64,000 nucleotides of DNA from NCBI GenBank assembly GCA_015059145.1, contig SVAZ01000003.1:12992-76991 (forward strand). Reading direction: 5' to 3'. Under the pieces are notes generated by a model that searched no databases, was not told the DNA's origin, and worked only from the letters and a program-made list of their open reading frames with translations. Shown here piece by piece: positions 15,522-30,661 of this stretch. Every line of letters begins with the position of its first letter. Position 1 is the first letter of the stretch. This stretch comes from Erysipelotrichaceae bacterium (GTDB taxonomy: Bacteria; Bacillota_I; Bacilli_A; Acholeplasmatales; Anaeroplasmataceae). The position numbers and the translations under genes are program-made.

Positions 15522-16586
15522 TTATATATCTCCTTTAAAATATTCTAAAATTTTATTTGAAATTTTATATGCTAATAATGGTGGCACAGCATTCCCTACT
15601 TGTTTATATTGCTCAACTTTAGACCCGATGAAAATAAAGTCATCTGGGAAACTTTGTAATCTAGCTGATTCTCTAATAGATGGAATTCTTGGTTCAGAAA
15701 AATGAAAATATGTTCTATGTCCGGTATCAATAGTTAATGCTGGTTTATTTCTATTCATTTTTCTCAGTAAAGCATTATAATTTCTATTTCCTTTTTGTTC
15801 TAATGTTAAATCTTTTATGCTTCCACCTTCAGGTACCAATTTAATTGTTTCAATAGTTTCCTTTGAATGATTAGTAGAATTGTGATTATAAATCATCTTA
15901 GAATTTATTCGCATTATTCTTTGATATTCATTTTGAGGTTCACAAATATAATTAAATTTTTTATTAGGATCAGCAGATGTTTCATATGGTAAATCTGATA
16001 ATGCATCATATACAGATAAGTGATTATTGTTATTACTTGGGATAGGAAATATAAAGGCTCCTTTTTCTTTGATAAATATCTCTTTTATTCCAACAAAAAT
16101 TACTCTTTTTCTTAATTGTGGAACCCCATAATCTGCTGCATTTAATGTATCATAGAAAATCTTATAGCCTAAATCATTTGATCGTTTAAAAATGTCATCT
16201 TTAACAGCTCCTTTTTTATAATTCAAAATTCCAGTTACATTTTCAATCACAAAAAACATAGGATTTATCTTTTCTAAGATTTCAAAATAAACTTTATATA
16301 GTTTATTTCTAATATCATCTTCTCCTCTTTTACCAGCTGTACTAAAACCCTGGCATGGTGGTCCTCCAATGATCCCAACAATATCATTTAACCCCTCATA
16401 GAATGATGAGTCAATTTTTGTCAAATCAAAAACTTCACCTTTTTTATTTTCTCTATTATAATTATAAGTATCAATAGCCGCTTTATTAAAATCAATGGCT
16501 TTTACTATTTCAAAGCCTGCTTTTTCAAAGCCTAAACTTAAACCACCACATCCACAAAACAAATCTAACAATTTATTATTTTGCAT
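15522..16586 (-). CDS. DNA (cytosine-5) methyltransferase, second copy
   Basis: 354 residues. All core motifs are visible: I in LLDLFCGCGGLSLGFEKAGF, IV in GGPPCQGFS with nucleophile Cys78, VI in FVIENVTGI, VIII in QLRKRVIF, and X in KQVGNAVPP. The region between motifs VIII and IX, which holds the target-recognition domain, is modest. It overlaps the first methyltransferase gene by 11 bases. The two share near-identical motif IX/X regions (IRESARLQSFPDDFIF) but differ in the variable region, so they probably methylate different sequences or the two strands of an asymmetric site. Confidence 0.95.
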   Translation of the reverse strand: MQNNKLLDLFCGCGGLSLGFEKAGFEIVKAIDFNKAAIDTYNYNRENKKGEVFDLTKIDSSFYEGLNDIVGIIGGPPCQGFSTAGKRGEDDIRNKLYKVYFEILEKINPMFFVIENVTGILNYKKGAVKDDIFKRSNDLGYKIFYDTLNAADYGVPQLRKRVIFVGIKEIFIKEKGAFIFPIPSNNNNHLSVYDALSDLPYETSADPNKKFNYICEPQNEYQRIMRINSKMIYNHNSTNHSKETIETIKLVPEGGSIKDLTLEQKGNRNYNALLRKMNRNKPALTIDTGHRTYFHFSEPRIPSIRESARLQSFPDDFIFIGSKVEQYKQVGNAVPPLLAYKISNKILEYFKGDI

Positions 16587-17664
16587 TTTTCAACACCTCC
16601 AAAAGACTACAAGCTATAGCATAAGCCATTAATGGGGGAACAGCATTTCCAACTTGCTTAAATTGCTCACCTTTATTTCCAACAAAAATAAAATCATCTG
16701 GGAAACTTTGTAACCTTGCTGATTCTCTAATAGTAGGAACTCTATTAAAAACAGGATGAAAATACATATTATGGCCTGTATCTATAGTGATAGATTGAGT
16801 TTTGTAATCTAATCTTCTTAAATAGTTAGATTGTCTATTATCTCTATCAGACTTAAATAATTCTTTAGGAACTTCTCTCCAGTTAAATCCAGGTCTCACA
16901 TAACTAATCATTTTTTGAACATTTGGAGTAGGATAATACATTAAATGATTATAAAGTTTGTTATCCGAATTCTTCCTCATTAATAGTTGATAAACAGATT
17001 TTGGTTCTTTTAAGACATAATAATCTTTTTTATTTAAATCAGCAAGAACTTCGCTTTCAATCTCTGCAATATCAGAAATGGCATCACCTACTGTAACCAT
17101 TGGTTTTTCATATTTCTTTAACAAATTAAAATCATATTTTCCATATGAATCTTTAACTCCTATAAAAATTGCTCTATATCTATCTTGAGGTACTCCATAC
17201 AATGATGCTTTTACAATTGAATAAGCTACATTGTATCCTAATTTTTTTAATACTTTACATATTTCATCTTTCACATATCCATTTTTTGAAGTCAAAATTT
17301 GTTTTACATTTTCGATTAATACAATTTTGGGTTTTAATAAACCTACAAATCTCAAATATTGTTGAAAAAGCATATTTCTTGGGTCATTGCCATCTTTGTT
17401 TCTCCTATTTAAACCTGAAAAACCCTGACATGGCGGGCCTCCAATAATAACTTCAACATTACTATAAGTTTTTAAAATAAATTCATCACTAATTTCAGTG
17501 ATATCGCCACAATAATCATATTTAGACTTTATATTCAATTTATGTGCTTGAAGTGCAGCTTCATCCCATTCAACTCCGCCAACAATTTCAAAGCCAGCAT
17601 TTTTGAAGCCTAAACTAAGTCCTCCAGCGCCACAAAACAAATCTAACACTTTATACTTCTTCAT
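16576..17664 (-). CDS. DNA (cytosine-5) methyltransferase, first copy
   Basis: 362 residues with the full m5C methyltransferase motif set: VLDLFCGAGGLSLGF (I), GGPPCQGFSGLNRR with Cys79 (IV), VLIENVKQIL (VI), YGVPQDRYRAIFIGV (VIII), QVGNAVPP (X). The variable region carries WREVPKELFKSDRDNRQSN. It overlaps the controller gene upstream by 14 bases and the second methyltransferase downstream by 11, so the operon is C-M1-M2-R with the nuclease last. That order delays nuclease production until methylation is established. Confidence 0.95.
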   Translation of the reverse strand: MKKYKVLDLFCGAGGLSLGFKNAGFEIVGGVEWDEAALQAHKLNIKSKYDYCGDITEISDEFILKTYSNVEVIIGGPPCQGFSGLNRRNKDGNDPRNMLFQQYLRFVGLLKPKIVLIENVKQILTSKNGYVKDEICKVLKKLGYNVAYSIVKASLYGVPQDRYRAIFIGVKDSYGKYDFNLLKKYEKPMVTVGDAISDIAEIESEVLADLNKKDYYVLKEPKSVYQLLMRKNSDNKLYNHLMYYPTPNVQKMISYVRPGFNWREVPKELFKSDRDNRQSNYLRRLDYKTQSITIDTGHNMYFHPVFNRVPTIRESARLQSFPDDFIFVGNKGEQFKQVGNAVPPLMAYAIACSLLEVLKNAK

Positions 17665-17863
17665 TATATACTACCCTCTTAAAATCTATATGTTTTATTT
17701 TACAAAAATTTTCAAATTGAATTTCTGCTTTTCTGGTTGGATAAACTTTTCCTCGTTCCCATCTGTTTATTGTTTGAAAAGAAACATTTAGTTCTCTAGC
17801 TAAATCACATTGAGTAATATTCAATATTGCTCTAACTTGTATCAATTTATCTTTAAATTCCAT
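17651..17863 (-). CDS. XRE-family controller protein of the R-M operon
   Basis: 70 residues from the second of two adjacent ATGs (17863; 17866 is also possible), with AAGGTG just upstream. The helix-turn-helix is about 15-40 (LNITQCDLARELNVSFQTINRWERGKVYP), the classic Cro/C1 pattern with a C-terminal SxxTxNxWE recognition helix. The first gene of a restriction operon with this fold is normally a C protein controlling its own promoter. A palindrome TGTTATAACA and a near copy exactly 20 bases away overlap the promoter, in line with this. Confidence 0.85.
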   Translation of the reverse strand: MEFKDKLIQVRAILNITQCDLARELNVSFQTINRWERGKVYPTRKAEIQFENFCKIKHIDFKRVVYNEEV

Positions 17864-17880
17864 CATTCTCACCTTAAAAA

Positions 17881-17930
17881 TGTTATAACAAACTATCACA
17901 TATTATAACATTTTATAATCGTTTAGTAAA
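17881..17930 (-). promoter_or_regulatory. R-M operon promoter with tandem palindromes
   Basis: The -10 TATAAT lies at 17902-17907 (minus), with a weak -35 TTTACT about 17 bases upstream. TGTTATAACA, a perfect 10-bp palindrome, is at 17881-17890; TATTATAACA at 17901-17910 is a one-base variant centred exactly 20 bp away. Two such sites two helical turns apart resemble C-boxes of restriction controller proteins. Confidence 0.55.
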
Positions 17931-18262: not shown

Positions 18263-18919
18263 TTATAAATAAATTCTCTTATTTATTTCAAGCATAATAG
18301 AAATAACCTTGTTCTTATATTTAGGATTATTAAATATAGCATTAGGTATAATGCTTCCATTATATGGGTGATCTATTTTATATGTACAGCCCTTATCCTT
18401 AATTATATTTATAATTTAATTTAATATTTCCTCATCATAATAGTCCTTTTCTACTCCTATACATATATCAGGAAAAGGAGCATTATGATGCTTAATAGCT
18501 AATTCATCTGAATAGCTATGAATGTCTAATATTAATAATTTATCCTTTTTAATTATTCTTTTAGTAATTCTATCTAATCTATTATGATATTTATCATAAT
18601 ATTTATAAACCTTATTTTTATATTTATCATCATGCTGATGAAATAAAATCCCATCATATGTATGAGTATATATAACACCCTGTCCATATTTAAACATAAA
18701 TTCCTTAGAATTATCCTTAAACTTTTCTATATCACAATATAGCCTAGAATATTTAGGCTTAATTTTTATAGCCTTAATATCACTAAATAAATAATCTACA
18801 TATATATCTGACATTTTTAAATTATATTTTCTAAATTCCTCCTTAGTAATTCTTAACCCCTTATAAAAGGCTTTAGGCACCCTTAAGCTTGTATGTGGTA
18901 TATGTAATAATATCTTCAT
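18263..18919 (-). pseudogene. N-formylglutamate amidohydrolase-like gene with in-frame stop
   Basis: The frame begins at ATG 18919 (AGGAGG nine bases before) with HIPHTSLRVP, the metal-binding start of the N-formylglutamate amidohydrolase family, and includes a LILDIHSYSDE segment with further ligands. Codon 168 is TAA (18416-18418). Beyond it the same frame continues without a shift for 51 codons with family-like sequence (HPYNGSIIPN, then IMLEINKRIYL) and stops at 18263-18265. The conserved end, including the EINKR(I)YL segment, is therefore cut off by a single nonsense codon. The truncated product would be 167 residues. It may be a recent pseudogene. An S-box riboswitch controls it. Confidence 0.8.
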
Positions 18920-18950
18920 TTTTATTTCCTCCTTATATTCCATAAAGGCA

Positions 18951-18980
18951 AAATAAAAACTCCCATCGTTAGATGAGAGT
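18951..18980 (-). terminator. Riboswitch expression-platform terminator
   Basis: ACTCTCATC / GATGGGAGT stem (18959-18980, one G-U pair) followed by TTTTTATTTT, between the S-box aptamer and the ribosome site of the amidohydrolase-like gene. Confidence 0.85.
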
Positions 18981-18994
18981 ATATAACAAATAAT

Positions 18995-19088
18995 ATAATC
19001 CCATCATTCAAGCATTAGCACCTTGCCTAATGGTAGGTTGCTGACGGCTTACGACCTTGTCTCTAACCGTTCTCTTTATGGTAATCTC
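18995..19088 (-). ncRNA. SAM-I (S-box) riboswitch aptamer
   Basis: Minus-strand sequence has the conserved S-box blocks in order: AGAGA at the start of P2, GAC-AAG-GTC inner hairpin, GCCGTCAGCAACC (consensus GCCxxGGCAACC), a short P3 hairpin CCTACCATTAGG, and AAGGTGCTAA, the SAM-I core. A closing helix forms from ACCAT and ATGGG. A terminator follows at the expected distance. The P2/P3 details deviate slightly from the consensus (CAGCAACC instead of CGGCAACC). SAM binding should favour the terminator and switch the downstream gene off when SAM is plentiful. Confidence 0.8.
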
Positions 19089-25772: not shown

Positions 25773-26708
25773 ATGAGCTTAATGACTAAAGAAAAGCCAT
25801 ATAATACACTTACAGCCTATTACAAGAATAAATATAATGCTAAGGTTGCAAAGATTGCACTTAATGCTGGCTTTACCTGTCCTAACAAGGATGGTAAAAA
25901 GGGATATGGTGGCTGTACCTATTGTTCAAAGCTTGGTAGCGGCGACTTTGCAGGAAATAAGGAAAAAAGCCTTAAGGAGCAATTTAATGACATACGTGCT
26001 GTAATGGAGAAAAAATGGCCTAACATTTTATACATACCATATCTACAGGCTAACTCTAATACCTACGCGCCACTAAATAAGCTTAAGGAAATCTACGAAG
26101 AGGTAATCTCGATAATACCAGAGAAAACAGTTGCCATCTCAATTGCAACAAGACCAGACTGCCTAGAGGATGATGTAGTCGAATATCTAGGAAAGCTAAA
26201 TAATAAAATACCAGTCCAAATAGAGCTAGGGCTTCAAACCTCAAACGAGAAAACAGCTAATAAAATCAACAGGTGCTCAACCAACGAGGAATTCATTTCA
26301 GCTGTAAAGAGGCTTAGAAGGCATAATATTGAAATAGTTGCCCACATCATCAATGGTTTACCATATGAAACTAAGGAGGATATGCTAAATACTATTTCCT
26401 TCATTAATAACCTAGATATTCAAGGTATAAAAATCCATTCACTATTAGTACTGAAGGACACTAAGCTTCATGAGGAATATAAAAATGAAGGCTTTAAAAT
26501 CCTAACGCTTGAGGAATATGTAGATATTACAGCTGAGCAAATTAGAATGCTTAAGCCATCTATAATAATCCATAGGCTTCAAGCTGATGGGGTTTATAAT
26601 GATTTAGTGGAGCCTAAATGGAGCTTAAAAAAGCTTGTAGTAATGAATGAGATTGATAAGACACTAAGAAAAAACAAATACTTTCAAGGACAAAAATATA
26701 AGGATTAG
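25773..26708 (+). CDS. Radical SAM protein, YtqA/TIGR01212 family
   Basis: 311 residues. The iron-sulfur/SAM cluster motif is the extended form of this family, GFTCPNKDGKKGYGGCTYC, with the last two Cys in CxxC spacing. Further family blocks are LYIPYLQANSNTYAPL, ATRPDCL, QIELGLQT and HIINGLPYET. Members belong to the Elp3-like radical SAM group; YtqA is a widely conserved Bacilli protein of unknown reaction, thought to act on RNA or a small molecule. AAGGTGAT precedes the ATG. It is divergent from the polC unit and ends in a hairpin shared with the LeuRS-like gene. Confidence 0.9.
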   Translation: MSLMTKEKPYNTLTAYYKNKYNAKVAKIALNAGFTCPNKDGKKGYGGCTYCSKLGSGDFAGNKEKSLKEQFNDIRAVMEKKWPNILYIPYLQANSNTYAPLNKLKEIYEEVISIIPEKTVAISIATRPDCLEDDVVEYLGKLNNKIPVQIELGLQTSNEKTANKINRCSTNEEFISAVKRLRRHNIEIVAHIINGLPYETKEDMLNTISFINNLDIQGIKIHSLLVLKDTKLHEEYKNEGFKILTLEEYVDITAEQIRMLKPSIIIHRLQADGVYNDLVEPKWSLKKLVVMNEIDKTLRKNKYFQGQKYKD

Positions 26709-26728
26709 CCAGATTGCTAATCCTTTTA
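26700..26728. terminator. Bidirectional terminator
   Basis: AAGGATTAGC / GCTAATCCTT stem with CAGATT loop (26700-26725), between convergent genes; the stem includes the stop codon of the radical SAM gene. Confidence 0.8.
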
Positions 26729-28732
26729 ATTTGGCCAATCCTCATTCATTAATGAGTATTTACCATTAAATATTTCCTTATACACCTCTTCTGCTAAAAA
26801 TGGCATAATAGGTGATATTAATCTTATAAAAATAAATGTTTGTTTTTTAGATAAGCCGTGCTCTAATGCATAATTTACAATAAAATCCTCTATTGCCTTA
26901 GCATATCCTAAGACATCATATTTTTCTAAGCTACTATTGCATTCCTTAATTAAATTAAACAATGCATAATCACAGCTACCTCCATCATCCACTGGCTCTA
27001 AGAGCTTACTATAAAGCTTGCTTATATTATTATCTATATCCTCAAGCTGATATTTATTAAACATAAAAACCTCATTTGAAGGCTGAGATACCATAAACAT
27101 TCTTATCGCATCAGACGAATAAGCTGCTAATAGCTTATCAAAATCAATAAGATTATTATTTGCTCTTTTAATATCCTTATGCTGAATATCAATTATATTA
27201 TCAAATAGCTCAATTTTATTAAATAGCCTTGGAAGCCTTTTACCAGATTCTATCTCAATAATTCTATAAAAAATCATCGGCATCAAAACAGATGAAATAA
27301 GCTCACTATCTTTAATAGCTAAATAGCTAATACCATTCATTCTATTAAGCTCAGAAAATGCTTCATTTGAAAACATGGGAATAATAGATCCAATTGAATC
27401 ATATAAAACTGAAATAATAGGACACATACCCTCAGTAAACAAATTATTAATTGTACCATTCATTGTGTTACCAGCAATATCTACATTATCAATTAGCACT
27501 GGTCGCATTTTAGATGAGAAGGCATAAGGTAAATGCCCCTCAAGTGAGAAGATTTCCTTTGAATCTTTATCCTCCAAAAACGGAAATAATGGACCAAAAT
27601 TGTCAAGTGATGACAATAATATTTCCTGATGCTCATACACTATGCGAAGCTTAGCAATATCAGCATCTATAAATGCATTGATGATTGTTTCATTTGCATC
27701 AACAGGGCTCATGCCATCTAAGAAATCAGAATTAACCATCCTACCTTCCTTAACAAGCTCAATAACCTCAAGCTCCTCTTCAATAGCTAGGACTTTATCA
27801 TCCTCATCAAAGCCTGGAATTCCTAAATAAACATCACACTGAAACATTGTTGAAATGAAAATAGGTATTTCCATGCCAGTTAGAGGATTTCTAGCAAATA
27901 AGCCTGTAAAGGCAAATAGCTTTTTAGTACTTCTACCCTCTAAATAGGACATTAGGCTTTCATATTCACTTGTATCAACATAATTAATTATATCTATATA
28001 GTCGGGGTTTAAGAATATAAAGCTTATACCACCCATATATTCAGGATCATTCATAGAGACATTAAGCTTAGCTCCATTAGATACAAAAAGCTCAAAATCT
28101 AAAACCCTTTTAGGCTTAAAGCAATTAAGAAGCTTTTTCTTAATATCATCACTACAATCAATTTGATTTATATCGTCAACAATATCATCAATTAAATTAT
28201 TAACCTTTAAAACAAATGATTTATAAAAAATTGTAGGTAGCTCTTTAGAATGGACTATTGCATCATAAATCTTATTAGCCTTCTTATCATAATATACCTT
28301 AGTATCCTTATACTCAATATAGCCTCTAGAATACAAATCGAGAAATGCTTGCTGAAGATTTTGAAGGTATTCGTTATGCCTCATATCAATATGCTTTGCA
28401 TCATTAATACCAATACCAAGGCTATACATCTGCCTTGTAAATACCTCTGATATATCATCATTCAAAACATTACTAAGCTTTTTATTTTCAACAAACGAGG
28501 TATTACATAATGAATGACATCCAGTAGGAAATAAAACGTTAAAGGATTGTAAGCGCTGATATCTAGCTAAGGTATCAGCATAAATAAGTCCTCTAGCATC
28601 ACCATTCTGAAAGCCATAAAGATTCCCCTTTGGAAATGGAGTGTATATATAAGATTTCTTCTTCAATCTATCATTTTCTAAAGCGAATTGCTTATCAGCC
28701 TGCCACTTCTTTATCCAATAGTCTCTATCCAT
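26726..28732 (-). CDS. LeuRS-like paralogue without the HIGH motif
   Basis: 668 residues, shorter than LeuRS (about 800). The fold order of a class I leucyl-tRNA synthetase can be followed: YWIKKW start, TPFPKGNLYG..., LARYQRLQSFNVLFPTG, an insertion that still resembles the CP1 editing domain (FTGLFARNPLTGMEIPIFI, then IPGFDEDD for AVPAHDERD), and the DAIRMF helix after the second signature. The HIGH tetrad is replaced by YGFQ (about 39-42), so both catalytic histidines are lost. KMSKS is replaced by KDIKR (519-523), keeping the first and fourth lysines. Aminoacylation is unlikely. AGGAGG precedes the ATG. Only about 30 bases separate it from the ACP terminator, so it is probably expressed by read-through from the ACP gene. 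Confidence 0.8.
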   Translation of the reverse strand: MDRDYWIKKWQADKQFALENDRLKKKSYIYTPFPKGNLYGFQNGDARGLIYADTLARYQRLQSFNVLFPTGCHSLCNTSFVENKKLSNVLNDDISEVFTRQMYSLGIGINDAKHIDMRHNEYLQNLQQAFLDLYSRGYIEYKDTKVYYDKKANKIYDAIVHSKELPTIFYKSFVLKVNNLIDDIVDDINQIDCSDDIKKKLLNCFKPKRVLDFELFVSNGAKLNVSMNDPEYMGGISFIFLNPDYIDIINYVDTSEYESLMSYLEGRSTKKLFAFTGLFARNPLTGMEIPIFISTMFQCDVYLGIPGFDEDDKVLAIEEELEVIELVKEGRMVNSDFLDGMSPVDANETIINAFIDADIAKLRIVYEHQEILLSSLDNFGPLFPFLEDKDSKEIFSLEGHLPYAFSSKMRPVLIDNVDIAGNTMNGTINNLFTEGMCPIISVLYDSIGSIIPMFSNEAFSELNRMNGISYLAIKDSELISSVLMPMIFYRIIEIESGKRLPRLFNKIELFDNIIDIQHKDIKRANNNLIDFDKLLAAYSSDAIRMFMVSQPSNEVFMFNKYQLEDIDNNISKLYSKLLEPVDDGGSCDYALFNLIKECNSSLEKYDVLGYAKAIEDFIVNYALEHGLSKKQTFIFIRLISPIMPFLAEEVYKEIFNGKYSLMNEDWPN

Positions 28733-28754
28733 AATAAATACCTCCTTTCCTCTA

Positions 28755-28789
28755 AAGAAAAATAAATGACTGCGAATTTACGCAGTCAT
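28755..28789 (-). terminator. Terminator or attenuator after acpP
   Basis: ATGACTGCG / CGCAGTCAT stem (28766-28789) followed by TTTATTTTTC on the minus strand. The next gene starts 34 bases past the stem, leaving no clear promoter, so partial read-through is likely. Confidence 0.8.
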
Positions 28790-28796
28790 CCATTTA

Positions 28797-29030
28797 TTAC
28801 TTAACTAATGATTCAATATAGTCAACGATGTTCTTAACAGTTGAAATTGCTTCAGCGTTATCTGTATCAATCTCAATATTGAAAGCATCTTCTAAATCCA
28901 TAATGATTTGAACTGCGTCGATACTATCAGCACCTAAATCATCCTTTAGGCTAGCATCTAAAGTAACCTTATCAGCATCAACATTAAGCTCATCAATAAT
29001 GATTTCTTTTACCTTATCAAAAACTGACAT
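28797..29030 (-). CDS. acpP: Acyl carrier protein
   Basis: 77 residues, the normal ACP length. The phosphopantetheine site is Ser36 in GADSIDAVQ (usual DSLD), within the acidic helix pattern LKDDLGADSIDAVQIIMDLEDAF. No fatty-acid synthesis genes are adjacent; neighbours are homoserine dehydrogenase upstream and the LeuRS-like gene downstream. It may be the general ACP or a dedicated carrier. AGGAGG lies eight bases before the ATG. Confidence 0.9.
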   Translation of the reverse strand: MSVFDKVKEIIIDELNVDADKVTLDASLKDDLGADSIDAVQIIMDLEDAFNIEIDTDNAEAISTVKNIVDYIESLVK

Positions 29031-30232: not shown

Positions 30233-30661
30233 TTATTCCACCGCAATAAGCATTACATCGATTACATTCTTTCCACGACGTAATTCATTAATAAAGCTTT
30301 GAATTGAAATGTCCATATCCATTACAGCAATTGTCAATGTAACAAATGCGATATTATGAATAGGAACCTCCTGGTTAATTGCTAATACGTTTGCGTTTCT
30401 TGAGGCGACCTCATTTAAAATATTAGATAAAGCACCTGGCTCATCTACTAGCTTAAGAGATAAAATAATATGCTTACCAACCTTCATTGAAGGACGATTA
30501 ACATAATCCTTGTATTTATAGAAGGTAGATCTTGATAATCCTACCTCCTTACAAGCATCTGAGATGTTTGTTCCTTTATTAATTATTTCCTTAATTTGAA
30601 TAACCTTTTCAAAATAATCAGGTAGTACCTTTTTATGAATTACATAATAATCATCATTCAT
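30233..30661 (-). CDS. thrR: UPF0735 ACT-domain regulator, ThrR/PheB type
   Basis: 142 residues. N-terminal helix-turn-helix-like segment (NISDACKEVGLSRSTFYKYKDYV), then an ACT domain (about 65-140: HIILSLKLVDEPGALSNILNEVA and NVLAINQEVPIHN). This is the UPF0735 layout; the Bacillus subtilis member ThrR (formerly PheB) represses hom-thrCB and thrD. Here it sits inside the threonine operon, between thrB and hom, so it is likely a local threonine-responsive repressor. Candidate operators lie at the thrC promoter. It overlaps neither neighbour; hom begins one base after its stop. Confidence 0.85.
   Translation of the reverse strand: MNDDYYVIHKKVLPDYFEKVIQIKEIINKGTNISDACKEVGLSRSTFYKYKDYVNRPSMKVGKHIILSLKLVDEPGALSNILNEVASRNANVLAINQEVPIHNIAFVTLTIAVMDMDISIQSFINELRRGKNVIDVMLIAVE

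Follow-up and report, generated by a model that had tools for sequence, protein, structure and literature searches.

A degenerate leucyl-tRNA synthetase behind an acyl carrier protein gene: probably a displaced native enzyme kept as a non-catalytic protein

Why does a bacterium with a working leucyl-tRNA synthetase (LeuRS) keep a second LeuRS-like gene, stripped of its catalytic signatures, directly behind the gene of an acyl carrier protein (ACP)? The question is raised by a stretch of 64,000 nucleotides (here called the window) of contig SVAZ01000003.1 from an Erysipelotrichaceae bacterium (GenBank assembly GCA_015059145.1). On its reverse strand, an open reading frame of 668 codons (26726–28732) starts with ATG behind GGAGG and contains no internal stop; by eye, its ribosome-binding site is AGGAGG at 28741–28746 on the same strand. 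An ACP gene of 77 amino acids (28797–29030, reverse strand; from the ORF list and locus comparison) lies directly upstream, as an earlier note on this DNA had stated. The canonical leuS that the note proposed to look for is present elsewhere in the genome (G000:C15); it is full-length, encodes 797 amino acids, and retains both HVGH and KMSKS.

By profile, alignment and predicted fold, the window gene is a member of the LeuRS family. Its product matches the NCBIfam profile leuS_bact (TIGR00396) with an E value of 2.5e-37 and 128.5 bits, below the curated cut-off of 548.4. The Pfam families Anticodon_1 (the anticodon-binding domain and top-scoring match), tRNA-synt_1g and the LeuRS editing domain are over their cut-offs, and tRNA-synt_1 is marginally under its own. 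The AlphaFold2 model of the protein has a mean pLDDT of 91.6; in a structure search it resembles solved LeuRS structures across residues 1–668, and the predicted fold is that of a class I LeuRS whose catalytic domain carries CP1 as an insertion. Profiles, alignment and model together back the earlier statement that the LeuRS layout, including CP1, can be traced.

The catalytic signatures themselves are lost. In an alignment with 19 working LeuRS, HVGH falls on codons 42–45 (QNGD; 28598–28609, reverse strand), just after the YGFQ formerly taken for its counterpart, and KMSKS falls on codons 520–524 (DIKRA; 27161–27175, reverse strand), one residue away from the KDIKR first proposed; both losses hold, and only their exact places had to be corrected. 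Both HVGH histidines are missing in all 33 aligned copies from the family of the window, and neither RQRYWG nor the GGPEHAVGH block is retained in the degenerate copies, from which the motifs of the leucine and ATP pocket are gone. The CP1 (editing) domain, residues 166–362 (27647–28237, reverse strand), whose boundaries we set from the alignment, is shortened, and the site of its T-rich loop TTRxDT, codons 227–238 by alignment (28019–28054, reverse strand), here reads MNDPEYMGGISF. The protein stops after the stem/anticodon-binding helical domain (residues 536–668; 26729–27127, reverse strand; Pfam and alignment), and the C-terminal domain of LeuRS is missing. An alignment-free motif count detected H.GH in none of 46 copies from the family and none of three copies from two other families, compared with 19 of 19 working LeuRS. 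Likewise, TTRxDT and the motif of the C-terminal domain occur in 0/46 family copies, and a KMSKS-like motif in one (G031, with KLSKT at the aligned place). The working enzymes themselves vary: KMSKS was counted in 15 and the T-rich loop in 16 of the 19, the sites being altered in four (KMGKR) and three, respectively.

The four enzymes with KMGKR in place of KMSKS are the working LeuRS of G003, G008, G018 and G034 (L054, L055, L062 and L057), which retain HAGH; in the first three, TTCIET also replaces TTRxDT. Judged by these motifs, they are apparently a divergent but working subtype.

The motif losses give good support to the view that the window protein would form neither leucyl-adenylate nor Leu-tRNA by LeuRS chemistry. 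Without the adenylation motifs, it is not expected to activate leucine, and because the copies are acidic and lack the C-terminal domain, they are not expected to charge tRNA-Leu. The median isoelectric point of the family copies is 4.78, compared with 5.70 and 5.66 for working LeuRS. The suggestion that such a paralogue might charge a carrier protein is unlikely in the form of leucine transfer to ACP by LeuRS chemistry, because H.GH, KMSKS-like and leucine/ATP-pocket motifs have been lost.

Among 60 relatives searched, 33 of the 36 that belong to the family of the window (f1) carry the degenerate gene, and it was found again in 13 of 14 further genomes of that family, or 46 of 50 in total. 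The genomes without it are G005, G022 and G303 (78, 84 and 89% complete) and G032 (97%), in which the contig stops shortly past the ACP gene. A contig scan by alignment yielded nine full-length relatives, six of them in Acholeplasmatales MAGs and one of those from goat rumen; the scan with the single window protein as query gave no matches. Reduced or altered copies exist in two more families. One f2 copy (G036) has 703 amino acids and retains a longer CP1, and the other (G040) has 615, with a stop inside the helical domain, and may be decaying. The f4 copy, of 517 amino acids, retains the N-terminus, CP1 and the helical domain and is missing most of the second catalytic half; it is not acidic (isoelectric point 5.64), and its model, built from a mixed alignment, has a pLDDT of 81.3, with CP1 among the best parts.

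In G032, an inverted-repeat-like stretch seen by eye (L203 8050–8141; G032:C9) directly follows the ACP gene and is followed by the contig end. It is possibly the end of an insertion sequence, and the leuS slot there may be disrupted.

Is the gene, then, a functionless relic on its way out? Its evolution is faster than that of working LeuRS, its promoter has been lost (see below), one f2 copy contains a stop, and the f4 copy has shrunk. Against this, full-length frames persist in 46 of 50 f1 genomes despite identities down to 22% between copies, ribosome-binding sites are retained, and the predicted fold is confident. Furthermore, dN/dS is 0.117–0.321 in seven of seven close pairs of degenerate copies; this is two to five times the value of the working enzyme (0.049–0.099 in five of the same genome pairs). 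The degenerate copies evolve faster, yet purifying selection on them throughout the family is well supported, and the earlier claim that an unbroken frame of 668 codons is under selection stands. With dN/dS of 0.12–0.32 and intact frames opposing a pseudogene, we consider the relic quite improbable.

The position behind the ACP gene had been read as a sign of recruitment, and this reading fails. Thirty-five of 36 degenerate copies (33 from f1, two from f2 and one from f4) start 47–286 bases behind the same ACP, the exception being G034, where the gene lies away from it. In the sister families f3 and f5, which have one LeuRS, a normal leuS occupies this slot, 101–165 bases behind the same ACP, in 14 of 20 genomes; in the other six, the ACP gene is 1.8–2.9 kb upstream (three genomes) or on a different contig (three). 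The adjacency is therefore inherited: the acpP–leuS order is ancestral. The convergent radical-SAM gene (25773–26708, forward strand; Pfam and locus comparison) is one of the syntenic genes by which the ancestral leuS locus can be recognised, and six of seven f3/f5 loci compared share it, together with PolC further down, as in f1.

The genes further upstream of the ACP differ between genera. The nearby hom and thr genes pointed out in the earlier note are indeed present in the window, but they are no general trait: thrB/thrC occur in 13 of 21 neighbourhoods compared, all 13 from the window's genus, hom occurs in five of the 21, and the eight neighbourhoods from other genera have neither. A role in threonine or homoserine metabolism was rejected on this distribution. 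Beside hom and thrB, the window encodes a 142-amino-acid protein (30233–30661, reverse strand) that combines a helix-turn-helix at its N-terminus with an ACT domain at its C-terminus and is likely an amino-acid-responsive regulator. Elsewhere in the window, two adjacent genes resembling DNA cytosine-5 methyltransferases by eye (15522–17899, reverse strand; 354 and 362 amino acids) adjoin a small helix-turn-helix protein.

Which of the two enzymes is the older resident? Eight f1 copies were compared by BLAST with a set of working enzymes, and each of them matched the same single f5 LeuRS best. The LeuRS tree includes eight of the 33 f1 copies, leaves out the f4 copy as too gappy, and has long branches, on which the program issued a warning. 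In it, one clade (97/100) unites the f3/f5 LeuRS with the f1 copies and the two f2 copies. The working LeuRS of f1 and f2 cluster with LeuRS from other families of the class (97/100); that of f4 clusters with Clostridia (100/99), that is, it is of Clostridia type. A constraint that joins the f1 copies to the working f1/f2 LeuRS was rejected by the AU test (p-AU 0.017), and more strongly with the f2 copies added (p-AU 0.0017), in groups that were named after the tree was seen and that have long branches. The phylogeny proposed in the earlier note as a check on a paralogue thus sets the copies with the f3/f5 LeuRS and apart from the family's working enzyme. Outside f1, the best matches of the working f1 LeuRS are to other families of the class (70–73% identity; G154, G171, G140 and G063), compared with 50–60% to the f3/f5 LeuRS of its own order, with other families of the class also ranging lower. 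This difference argues that the native LeuRS was displaced.

These comparisons support well the view that the degenerate gene represents the order's native LeuRS, still in the ancestral acpP–leuS slot, and that the working LeuRS of the family is a newcomer from another family of the class. Taken jointly, native origin and loss of catalysis are very probable. Two members of the LeuRS family in one genome would also be expected if the working LeuRS had recently been duplicated and the copy had moved behind acpP, but synteny, the best-match pattern, the tree and the AU tests all oppose this; we have rejected this candidate as highly improbable. Of the original description as a LeuRS paralogue without signatures, the kinship and the motif loss remain, and a displaced native enzyme fits better than a copy of the working one. 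In unrooted trees of PolC and of the radical-SAM protein, f1 forms one group and f3 plus f5 another, with f4 (and f2) placed between these groups or next to them; the trees would accommodate one to three events of displacement or catalytic loss in f1, f2 and f4.

A second LeuRS was found in 44 of 46 carriers, full-length in 37 and partial in seven, several of these at contig ends. The other LeuRS is absent from the draft assemblies of two carriers, G014 (99% complete) and G023 (95%). Because leuS is fragmented at contig ends in a number of relatives, we take these absences as presumed assembly gaps; otherwise they would count against displacement. In five drafts (G001, G004, G006, G021 and G025), no more than fragments of the working leuS were found, most of them at contig ends; this points to a repeat near the gene or to some other obstacle to assembly there.

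How the displaced gene may be expressed was examined in 35 loci (32 from f1, two from f2 and one from f4; G034, with no ACP there, was excluded), the ACP end being recognised in 33 for the hairpin count and in 34 for the promoter count. A hairpin scan of the window revealed a terminator-like hairpin with a T tract between the ACP and LeuRS-like genes (28754–28792, reverse strand). Such structures occur in 30 of 33 ACP–gene gaps (29/30 in f1, 1/2 in f2 and 0/1 in f4), whereas shuffled gaps gave 1.25 of 33 on average. All 14 adjacent f3/f5 loci have TATAAT 21–28 nucleotides ahead of the leuS start, behind the ACP terminator; the best promoter-like site has TATAAT in two of 35 degenerate copies. 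A looser rule (nine of 12 matches) recovers promoter-like sites in 13 of 14 f3/f5 leuS genes (shuffle mean 4.1) and in nine of 35 degenerate copies (shuffle mean 7.2). The median gap has shortened from 90 bases in f3/f5 to 53.5 in the degenerate copies. From the hairpin, the lost TATAAT and the shorter gap we infer read-through: the degenerate gene appears to lack a promoter of its own and to depend on the acpP transcript, and it seems to live on acpP read-through. At G034, TATAAT is seen by eye just upstream of the degenerate gene.

An Rfam search of the window for leader RNAs found three tRNAs and one SAM riboswitch, none of them at the LeuRS-like gene. The SAM-I/IV riboswitch match (18969–19086, reverse strand; score 41.5, gathering score 41.1) lies upstream of a 175-amino-acid ORF (18416–18943) that by eye resembles N-formylglutamate amidohydrolase.

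What, then, has been kept? Residues invariant in the 33 f1 copies include D53, F130, K198, P243, G277, N282, D312, S335, P384, P402 and R544. D312 (27797–27799, reverse strand; by alignment) has an aligned Asp in 19 of 19 working LeuRS, which we take to be the Asp of the LeuRS editing site. At the old editing pocket in CP1, new motifs are conserved: PEYLGG (at the place of TTRxDT), NPLTG and NSDFL. Of 54 near-invariant columns, 22 fall in CP1, 11 in the N-terminus, five in the helical domain and four in the KMSKS half; all regional departures are weak (p 0.048–0.074), including the excesses in the N-terminus (p 0.048) and CP1 (p 0.074).

This pattern bears on whether the protein could be a tRNA-Leu binder without catalysis, comparable to the archaeal LeuRS-I and LeuRS2, that buffers tRNA-Leu or acts upon either LeuRS or the ribosome. 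In favour, the top Pfam score belongs to the anticodon-binding domain, and the LeuRS fold extends over the full length; however, conservation in the helical domain, which makes up 20% of the length, is among the lowest in the protein, all 46 copies lack the C-terminal domain, and the median net charge is −31, against −20 and −18 in working LeuRS. Such a role is unlikely. Since the N-terminal core and CP1 with its new motifs persist, we favour a non-catalytic binding or regulatory protein, with a role centred on CP1 as a plausible but tentative refinement.

A carrier-protein enzyme that loads, unloads or proofreads cargo on the co-transcribed ACP, its CP1 pocket acting on a thioester, would account for the 35 of 36 copies that stay behind the ACP while genes further upstream change, for the apparent tie to the acpP transcript after loss of the promoter that relatives have, and for D312 in 33 of 33 copies. 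Amino acid:carrier protein ligases have a class II synthetase core with an adenylation site, and the SerRS, AlaRS and GlyRS behind them are class II synthetases; here, the predicted fold is that of a class I LeuRS, and no adenylation motif is left. A carrier gene is nearby in 35 of 36 cases, but that adjacency was inherited from a normal leuS, still found there in 14 of 20 f3/f5 genomes, and the gene of G034 lies apart from the ACP. Moreover, the protein is acidic like ACPs, with no obvious basic docking face in its sequence, and the ligases given in Table 1 of a 2022 review (PMC9437257) stem from SerRS, AlaRS and GlyRS. A carrier-protein enzyme is distinctly unlikely, although the lost promoter and apparent dependence on acpP would keep a link with the ACP alive.

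The best explanation overall, which we consider probable, is that of a displaced native LeuRS kept as a non-catalytic protein. An acquired LeuRS would have displaced the native one, which stayed in the acpP–leuS slot and lost HIGH, KMSKS, the amino-acid-pocket motifs, the T-rich loop, the C-terminal domain and its promoter. Transcription past the acpP terminator would supply small amounts of the resulting pseudoenzyme, which would act through its N-terminal core and remodelled CP1. The amino-acid-sensing or regulatory role raised in the earlier note would be close to this reading. Retention would be explained most simply by a second job of the native LeuRS, other than charging, for which the newcomer was no substitute. 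In a more speculative version, to which we give only a small chance, each displacement (in f1/f2 and separately in f4) stripped the old protein down to that job. The job may concern the ACP, because the gene is tied to the acpP transcript; the CP1 pocket would bind or hydrolyse ACP cargo and so link lipid and amino-acid metabolism.

The top structural match of the window protein is AgnB2, which is presumably an active synthetase conferring immunity to a LeuRS inhibitor. That assumption fits the abstract of PMC5059758, on this self-immunity LeuRS of Agrobacterium radiobacter K84 (PDB 5ah5); AgnB2 is likewise a second LeuRS, but the window protein is without catalytic motifs. It differs from bacterial LeuRS (TIGR00396), too, in the absence of HIGH, KMSKS, the T-rich loop and the C-terminal domain. 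As the 2022 review of synthetase duplications describes them, LeuRS-I of Sulfolobaceae and LeuRS2 of Halobacteria are also extra LeuRS beside a working one, with a role outside translation suspected (PMC9437257). In that account, LeuRS-I, with its CP1 disrupted, can still form leucyl-adenylate, and some activity remains in LeuRS2; here, in contrast, the protein has lost the synthetic site and retained CP1, and the motif loss argues against leucyl-adenylate formation of the LeuRS-I type. Furthermore, the review treats both as duplications, whereas the extra copy here would be a displaced native gene. HisZ and SLIMP, as presented there, are likewise non-charging proteins in which a synthetase fold serves as regulatory subunit or as binding partner, but they derive from HisRS and SerRS, not from LeuRS (PMC9437257). 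Table 1 of the review gives no paralogue function for LeuRS, and the literature searched yielded no description of the protein studied here.

Synthetase-like proteins without catalysis are already known; what is new is a probable pseudoenzyme of LeuRS origin that arose by displacement and not by duplication. Duplication is the usual origin story for synthetase-like proteins; in the present case, synteny allows the course of events to be reconstructed. Throughout one family, a displaced native enzyme would have stayed at its locus, and reduced copies occur in two others. Whether non-translational duties of synthetases may hold obsolete genes in genomes is a general question that becomes testable here, with concrete starting points in the conserved residues and the apparent coupling of expression to acpP.
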